A DNA stretch of 64,000 nucleotides from an uncultured Alphaproteobacteria bacterium (GTDB taxonomy: Bacteria > Pseudomonadota > Alphaproteobacteria > SP197): the NCBI GenBank assembly GCA_958295695.1, contig OY282363.1, positions 2,236,225 to 2,300,224 on the forward strand, written 5' to 3'. This document shows, piece after piece, positions 53,641 through 55,231 of the stretch. The position numbers were made by a program, and so were the translations under genes. Every line of letters starts with the position of its first letter. The first letter of the stretch is position 1. Under the pieces are notes generated by a model, which was not told the DNA's origin, did no database searches, and saw nothing but the letters and a program-made list of their open reading frames with translations.

Positions 53641-53771
53641 AACGCGGTTCCACCTGATTGAATCTTATTGAGGTTCACAGGAGCTTTGAACAACCCGACC
53701 TCAATCTCGCCGAACTCACCCTCGCAAAGCCGATAAGTATAGGAGCCCCCAGATCGCCGTCGGCGCGACCT

Positions 53772-54953
53772 TCACGAATTCATCTCGTCCCGTAGCTTCG
53801 CGAGGGTTCGTGGTGGATCCCCGTACATCCAGTAATCGGGGCCCGGCGCAGTCTTCCAATCCATGCCCCTGCCGCGAACGACCCGTTTCGCGGCAGCTGA
53901 CAGGCTCATTGTCGCGCCCTCGAACTCGACTCGCCGGTCGTCCACGACCCTGCACGATACGCTGTCGTCCAACACCGATATCAGAACCGCGTCGGGTTCG
54001 ACCCCGATCATGGAGAACTTGAAATTACTCCTCCTCGACCTTCTCTCGACGGGTCTGGGCGCTTCGCCACCGGATGATCGGGGCGATGGAGTAACGTCCC
54101 GGTTTCCGAACCCCTCAAGGATGACCACTACTTGGGAGGCATCCATCTCGAAAAACTCTCGCTTCTCTACGCGACGATCCGCGAACGCTTTGTGGAGGAT
54201 CTTCTCGACCTCTCGGGCGTCTCCGAACTCCCACGCCGCCTCGCAGTCGAATGGATAGGGCACGCCGGTGCTGTTCAGGGACTTCATTCTATCCTCGATC
54301 ATCTGCGTGGTATGCCCGATCTTCACAAATCCTGGCATGGCCCGATTGGTCAACACATACACAATTCCCATATCCCGCTCCTGTGTTGCTGGCATCCGAG
54401 TCATACATGCGAGAACCGCGGCCACCCAGTCTGGAGGACGTTCTCCGATCCATCGTGTTCCCGCTCCGAGGATCGCAACCTCGCGGTGAGGCCGGTCGGG
54501 GCTGGAGTTGTCGTAGAGAAGGACTTCGTCGGCCTGCGCGACCGCGGCCGGCAGGTTGGCCTGCGATCGGACAAACCGCCGCCGCACATCCGGTTCCGGG
54601 ACATCGTGACCGCCGAGCGCGACACGGTTGCGGATGCGGTCGAGCGCCTGCTCGGGCGAATTGACGGATACATAGTGAAGGACGATCCGGTAGCCTTCCG
54701 CCCGCGCGGTCTTCATGTGGCGAAGAACGCCGGAACCGGCGAGGGTGGTCTCGACCAAGTGCGTCCCGCCCGCGCGGAGCGCCGCCCAGCGGCGGCGCAA
54801 CGCTTCACGGGCTGCTTGTCCGAGCGTGCCCGACGCCATGCCGCGCATGATCGCATCGGGGTCGATTACGTTAAACCCGCTGAATCCGCTCATGCGCGTC
54901 AGGGTGGACTTGCCACACCCGTTCGGGCCGGCAACGACATAAAGGGTCGGCAT
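53772..54953 (-). CDS. Fusion protein: zeta-toxin-like kinase, GIY-YIG nuclease, RAMA/DUF4357-like domain
   Basis: 393 residues in one uninterrupted frame. Residues 1-178 are a P-loop kinase of the COG4185/zeta-toxin group: Walker A AGPNGCGKSTLTR, VIDPDAIMR, HLVETTLAGSG and the basic segment DRIRNRVALGGHDVPEPDVR. Residues 195-272 are a T5orf172-type GIY-YIG domain: GIVYVLTNRAMPGFVKIGHT (GIV-Y and KIG), Arg222, STGVPYPFDCEAAWEFGDAR, Glu250, His254 and REFFEMD. Residues about 310-391 resemble RAMA/DUF4357, predicted to read modified DNA (MSLSAAAKRVVRGRGMDWK, YWMYGDPPRTLAKLRDE). The GIY-YIG part begins at an internal ATG (54371). A 67-residue ORF lies 18 bases upstream and is likely the antitoxin. 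Local GC is lower than the flanks. I know of no description of this combination. Confidence 0.75.
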   Translation of the reverse strand: MPTLYVVAGPNGCGKSTLTRMSGFSGFNVIDPDAIMRGMASGTLGQAAREALRRRWAALRAGGTHLVETTLAGSGVLRHMKTARAEGYRIVLHYVSVNSPEQALDRIRNRVALGGHDVPEPDVRRRFVRSQANLPAAVAQADEVLLYDNSSPDRPHREVAILGAGTRWIGERPPDWVAAVLACMTRMPATQERDMGIVYVLTNRAMPGFVKIGHTTQMIEDRMKSLNSTGVPYPFDCEAAWEFGDAREVEKILHKAFADRRVEKREFFEMDASQVVVILEGFGNRDVTPSPRSSGGEAPRPVERRSRRSNFKFSMIGVEPDAVLISVLDDSVSCRVVDDRRVEFEGATMSLSAAAKRVVRGRGMDWKTAPGPDYWMYGDPPRTLAKLRDEMNS

Positions 54954-54971
54954 GGGTGCCGGCCTGTCGGA

Positions 54972-55175
54972 TCAGGCGAGCCGCCGGTCGGGCCGCCTCA
55001 ACACCCGGTCGCCGTCCCTGGTCCGCGCGATGTAGGCGCCGTCCGACCGGACGCCGTAGAGCGTCCCGCCGGCCTCGACCTGGGCCGCGAGGTCCGCCTC
55101 GATCTGGTCGCGCCAATCTTCCGGGAAACCCGGTATGCTGGGCGGCGGCGCTGTCGTTTCCTCGTGCTTGGACAT
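54972..55175 (-). CDS. Small putative antitoxin paired with the kinase-nuclease fusion
   Basis: 67 residues from ATG 55175: a Pro-rich start (MSKHEETTAPPPSIPGF), an acidic helix (DWRDQIEADLAAQVEAGG) and a beta-like end (TLYGVRSDGAYIARTRDGDR). Short proteins of this shape are found before COG4185-type zeta-like kinases, so it is the expected antitoxin. It is 18 bases upstream of the fusion gene, same strand. Confidence 0.65.
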   Translation of the reverse strand: MSKHEETTAPPPSIPGFPEDWRDQIEADLAAQVEAGGTLYGVRSDGAYIARTRDGDRVLRRPDRRLA

Positions 55176-55231
55176 GCCGCCGACCTTACGTCCGGCGCTG
55201 GCGGCGTTCAACGGCGCTTCCACCCCGGCCG

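Follow-up and report, generated by a model that had tools for sequence, protein, structure and literature searches.

In the analysed window (the whole stretch of 64,000 nucleotides), a frame of 393 codons runs without a stop through 53772-54953 of the minus strand and carries a zeta-toxin-like kinase followed by a GIY-YIG nuclease with a RAMA-like domain. The single open frame described in the initial annotation is confirmed. A 67-codon ORF ends 18 bases before it and is preceded by a promoter-like sequence. The features of the locus are as follows:

53641..55231, no strand assigned: accessory cassette, about 1.6 kb long, which five same-genus genomes lack between the two flanking genes
55183..55211, minus strand: promoter-like TTGAAC-17 bp-TAAGGT, 7 bases 5' of the ATG of the small ORF, a spacing shared by 9 of 10 copies
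54972..55175, minus strand: 67-aa ORF, predicted antitoxin, accompanied by the kinase or kinase remains in close relatives
53772..54953, minus strand: fused 393-aa ORF of kinase, GIY-YIG nuclease and RAMA-like domain (from the ORF and Pfam)
54408..54953, minus strand: zeta-toxin-like P-loop kinase module, residues 1-182, right after which homology to the stand-alone kinases of 185-191 aa fades
54372..54407, minus strand: junction, residues 183-194 (MTRMPATQERD), of low model confidence
54378..54382, minus strand: Shine-Dalgarno-like AGGAG, 6 bases before an internal ATG (54369-54371) that is likely the old nuclease start
53775..54371, minus strand: PDC-S57-like GIY-YIG (T5orf172) nuclease with its C-terminal domain, residues 195-393; R222, E250 and H254 conserved
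53775..54047, minus strand: RAMA-fold C-terminal domain, residues 303-393, from a model of the domain alone

The cassette lies between an enoyl-CoA hydratase-like gene and an SDR-like gene, both named from their translations. In five genomes of the same genus these two genes adjoin each other, the matched ends being separated by about 12-31 bases. Because the flanks nearly touch there, the whole of the about 1.6 kb is an accessory insert. The neighbours of the fusion in the window are metabolic genes with intact long frames, not a defence island, and the cassette DNA had no match among the plasmids searched.

The zeta-like kinase proposed in the initial annotation is supported. Pfam Zeta_toxin and AAA_33 match within residues 4-149, both above their curated cut-offs (28.0 bits versus 22.3 and 29.6 versus 27, respectively), the claimed Walker A motif is found as GPNGCGKST, and the predicted model has the zeta/PezT fold (zeta toxin, Z 14.5 to 3q8x_D and 13.5 to 2p5t_H; polynucleotide kinase, Z 15.5). 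Kinase relatives occur in the same genus (G001, G006 and G007), in other genera of the class (G475, G658, G728 and G734) and in a Bryobacterales MAG; the intact stand-alone ones are 59-72% identical and stop after 185-191 residues, and the window kinase aligns with its relatives until about residue 182. It differs from the others in 3 of the 79 columns that are invariant among them, and its decay is no faster than theirs. More distant relatives are carried by many plasmids, and a kinase profile found no match in viral contigs. Phosphorylation of UDP-N-acetylglucosamine is characteristic of the zeta toxin superfamily. Since the model is as close to polynucleotide kinase as to zeta toxin, and AvrRxo1, a kinase of the same fold, uses NAD as a substrate (PMC5491322), the kinase here would be expected to phosphorylate a nucleotide-like or nucleic-acid substrate.

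The small ORF adjoins the kinase upstream in all eight close relatives that have a kinase, so the antitoxin position suggested for it is conserved together with the kinase itself. Across relatives, the kinase has dN/dS values of 0.19-0.35 and the small ORF values of 0.10-0.67, most of them at 0.15-0.4, and we conclude from these values that both evolve as real genes. In 9 of 10 copies, TTG(A/T)xx is followed by 17 bases, a hexamer starting with TA, 7 bases and then the start of the small ORF; the two hexamers are more strongly conserved than the spacer, with a majority fraction of 0.82 and 0.73 against 0.58. As the copies are related by descent, this conservation supports a promoter without proving it. 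With the hexamers only 7 bases before the ATG, the transcript of the small ORF and the kinase is probably leaderless.

In several relatives the kinase is broken or deleted. In G001 its Walker A motif reads GCVKF, in G007 a frameshift interrupts it and AAT stands in place of its start, and in G572 all but about the last 20 codons have been deleted; the small ORF is open in each. The loci with a broken or deleted kinase but an open small ORF (L005, L006 and L051) are small in number; two more kinase loci, L055 and L056, are degenerate. Loss of the toxin with retention of the antitoxin is a usual path of decay for toxin-antitoxin systems, so the pattern supports, indirectly only, a small protein that neutralises the kinase. 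The arrangement is that of a type II system, a two-gene operon in which the small partner stands beside the kinase, is conserved jointly with it and shares its promoter; as judged from the DNA, the two genes resemble a toxin-antitoxin operon that has a promoter of its own.

The pair could also be explained as a kinase of metabolic or RNA-repair type that is accompanied by an accessory peptide. This reading concerns the kinase half only and is compatible with the origin of the join that we favour below. The tied fold scores (polynucleotide kinase Z 15.5, zeta toxin Z 14.5) fit it, as does the small protein, for which no family matched in Pfam, NCBIfam, PHROG or PADLOC. We nevertheless consider it unlikely, given the repeated loss of the kinase while the small ORF stays open, the presence of kinase relatives on many plasmids, and a distant kinase relative that lies directly 3' of a ParD_like antitoxin gene on a Cereibacter plasmid. 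The pair under its linked promoter is a more robust finding than the fusion. It exposes a compact two-gene unit with one conserved promoter and a small protein that matched no described family.

Three further observations concern the pair. In G001 the pair is preceded upstream by a second small-ORF copy of more distant sequence (L113:7377-7523; 41% identity over 45 residues). A gene for a PALP-family enzyme adjoins the pair in two genomes of one genus (L115 and L117). Around the few pairs examined, the genes are metabolic or transport genes, not defence genes.

The C-terminal half corresponds to a nuclease that is known as a gene of its own. T5orf172/MUG113 match at residues 196-280 above the curated cut-off (T5orf172 E 4.7e-17), and Y199, R222, E250 and H254 are invariant in an alignment of eight family members; of these residues, Arg222 and Glu250 had been recognised as kept in the initial annotation. 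Over their entire length, stand-alone proteins of about 200 residues align with the whole of residues 195-393 at 35-42% identity; one of them is encoded elsewhere in the same genome and several on viral contigs. The PADLOC profile PDC-S57 aligns residues 193-392 with its positions 3-207 of 212 (E 3.5e-61), and the relatives score likewise. The end-to-end match and the profile together indicate that the GIY-YIG and RAMA-like modules are one ordinary gene. The initial annotation had counted three modules normally found apart; the frame joins two. A sequence search with the nuclease profile against solved structures gave nothing useful.

Pfam matched nothing beyond residue 280, and the Pfam RAMA profile (PF18755) had no match in the protein or elsewhere in this genome. 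Fold searches with the whole model returned hardly anything but kinases, and a separate model of the C-terminal domain was therefore made with homologues (pLDDT 81). This model matches CcrM (6pbd, residues 268-355) with Z 10.9 over 84 aligned residues and MPND (7ydw) with Z 8.1 over 82, the next unrelated rows being at 6.3 and 4.2. A profile-profile comparison with RAMA gave a probability of 57%, which is suggestive only. On the predicted structure the C-terminal domain has a RAMA fold, as had been proposed from the sequence. Reading of methylated DNA by MPND is unsettled (PMC11037411).

Each half is thus already known alone, and the join between them was found nowhere else that we searched. 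Across the join the protein reads ...VAAVLA CMTRMPATQERD MGIVYVL..., in which the M of MGIVYVL is residue 195. Because AGGAG stands 6 bases before codon 195, the old nuclease start appears to survive inside the frame. The GC content is 67% in the kinase half and 55% in the GIY-YIG domain, against 70% for the window, and the composition shifts at the join. The GC3 values are similar (76% in the kinase, 72-75% in the nuclease), so the join may be older than base composition suggests, in which case selection could have acted on it. Were a nuclease gene captured at random together with its leader, an in-frame join free of stops would be expected in about 18-23% of cases; the open frame alone is therefore no evidence for a selected fusion.

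The search for other fusions covered samples of the genus, order, class and phylum, GTDB contigs, plasmids, phages and viral contigs. No second kinase-nuclease fusion was found in these partial samples, which comprised about 770 genomes, 72,556 plasmid records and 50,697 records of phages. A 711-aa frame at L024 was considered as a second fusion and was rejected on inspection as a reading of upstream GC-rich DNA. A literature search found no report of zeta-GIY-YIG fusions or of COG4185 toxins.

We propose that the kinase gene of an accessory toxin-antitoxin-like operon was joined in frame at its 3' end to a stand-alone PDC-S57-type nuclease gene, an origin that we consider probable. The DNA itself shows the join, the empty site, the two families of parent genes and a nuclease start still preceded by a ribosome-binding-site-like sequence. 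Three points weigh against this proposal: a one-base error in sequencing or assembly could have removed the kinase stop, the similar GC3 of the two halves may mean an older join, and the neighbours are metabolic genes without a defence island. Most likely we are looking at a lineage-specific fusion of two accessory genes, apparently a single occurrence.

The first of these points amounts to a different explanation, in which two adjacent genes are in fact separate and an error has removed the kinase stop. Intact kinases elsewhere do end in stop codons, the nuclease retains its own start signals, and the +1 frame has a TGA just after codon 182, so that a single-base error there would merge two genes. 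Such an error is quite improbable in our estimation, as the assembly consists of 2 contigs at 100% completeness, the neighbouring genes are intact long frames, and the kinase frame matches its relatives up to about residue 181. The initial annotation had itself allowed for an accidental merger of genes that lie separately at this place in relatives. No fused homologue was found in the samples searched, and the relatives do have separate genes, with the site empty there. This supplies one half of the grounds that the initial annotation had named against its own reading; the other half, a lost stop or a sequence error, may or may not apply.

The initial annotation had suggested a candidate composite system that senses DNA modification and has two possible outputs. 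As a functional effector, an antitoxin-restrained kinase and a RAMA-guided nuclease would form one anti-phage device, and recognition of DNA, perhaps through its modification, would lead both to the phosphorylation of nucleotides or sugars and to cleavage of DNA. Every catalytic motif is intact, the kinase deviates at few of the otherwise invariant columns and decays no faster than its relatives, and GIY-YIG nucleases joined to other domains serve defence, for example in SNIPE/PD-lambda-1 (PMC13190303). Even so, an established composite system is not supported, and we hold a functional composite to be very improbable: kinase and nuclease are separate genes in relatives, the join occurs once in the samples searched, an in-frame join arises by chance in a sizeable fraction of captures (about 18-23%, as above), and the linker is short with an undefined domain arrangement (pTM 0.47). 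A related reading, an antitoxin-gated one-protein effector in which recognition of foreign, possibly modified DNA releases metabolite phosphorylation together with DNA cleavage, is likewise very improbable, and would, if true, be a new kind of defence effector.

We then propose a model for the fusion of kinase and nuclease genes. The starting point would be a two-gene toxin-antitoxin-like operon, encoding the 67-residue antitoxin and the zeta-like kinase, in an accessory cassette. A gene for a GIY-YIG-RAMA candidate defence nuclease would then have been joined to the 3' end of the kinase gene, replacing its stop codon. The joined gene would yield the 393-residue fusion, and translation from the internal start may add a nuclease of 199 residues. 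The 67-residue protein may restrain the kinase, the RAMA domain may bind DNA, possibly modified DNA, and the kinase and the nuclease would keep separate activities. Coupling of the two halves in function is possible, and nothing seen requires it. If functional, the fusion would be a new way to place a DNA-reading nuclease under antitoxin control. The locus appears to capture the merging of a candidate defence nuclease with a toxin-antitoxin-like cassette into one gene.

Both halves can be set beside known systems. With the zeta toxin, PezT and AvrRxo1 kinases (PF06414 and relatives, COG4185-like short kinases) the kinase shares the P-loop fold, the Walker A and zeta-type motifs and a small upstream partner gene, but it is much shorter (about 187 residues) and fused to a nuclease, and its partner matched none of the known antitoxin families. 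Two-domain GIY-YIG-RAMA fusions (PMC11037411) and the joining of DUF4357 with GIY-YIG/T5orf172 (PMC4619093) have been noted; they have the nuclease and the RAMA-like domain in common with the present protein, whereas those reports describe the pairs without a kinase. PDC-S57 is a PADLOC candidate single-gene phage defence family, and the match extends over its whole length, GIY-YIG and C-terminal domain included. Its members usually stand free, as genes of about 200 residues, whereas here the start codon lies inside the kinase frame and the nuclease is read continuously with the kinase, the internal start being retained. It is a candidate family by name, and a literature search on PDC-S57 found no report and no published phage-protection test. 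SNIPE (PD-lambda-1), a defence protein whose cutting part is a GIY-YIG nuclease (PMC13190303), shares this domain, with a profile match (E 9e-11) confined to the nuclease domain. Before its nuclease SNIPE has a membrane part and DUF4041, neither of which is seen here, where a kinase stands instead.

The same genome carries a second PDC-S57-like GIY-YIG gene at L120:6750-7448 on the plus strand (G000:C1, about 3220.8 kb), in a stretch of low GC3. Further ORFs lie downstream of it, one of which (L120:10632-11753) matches PADLOC PD-Lambda-5_A with E 6e-26.
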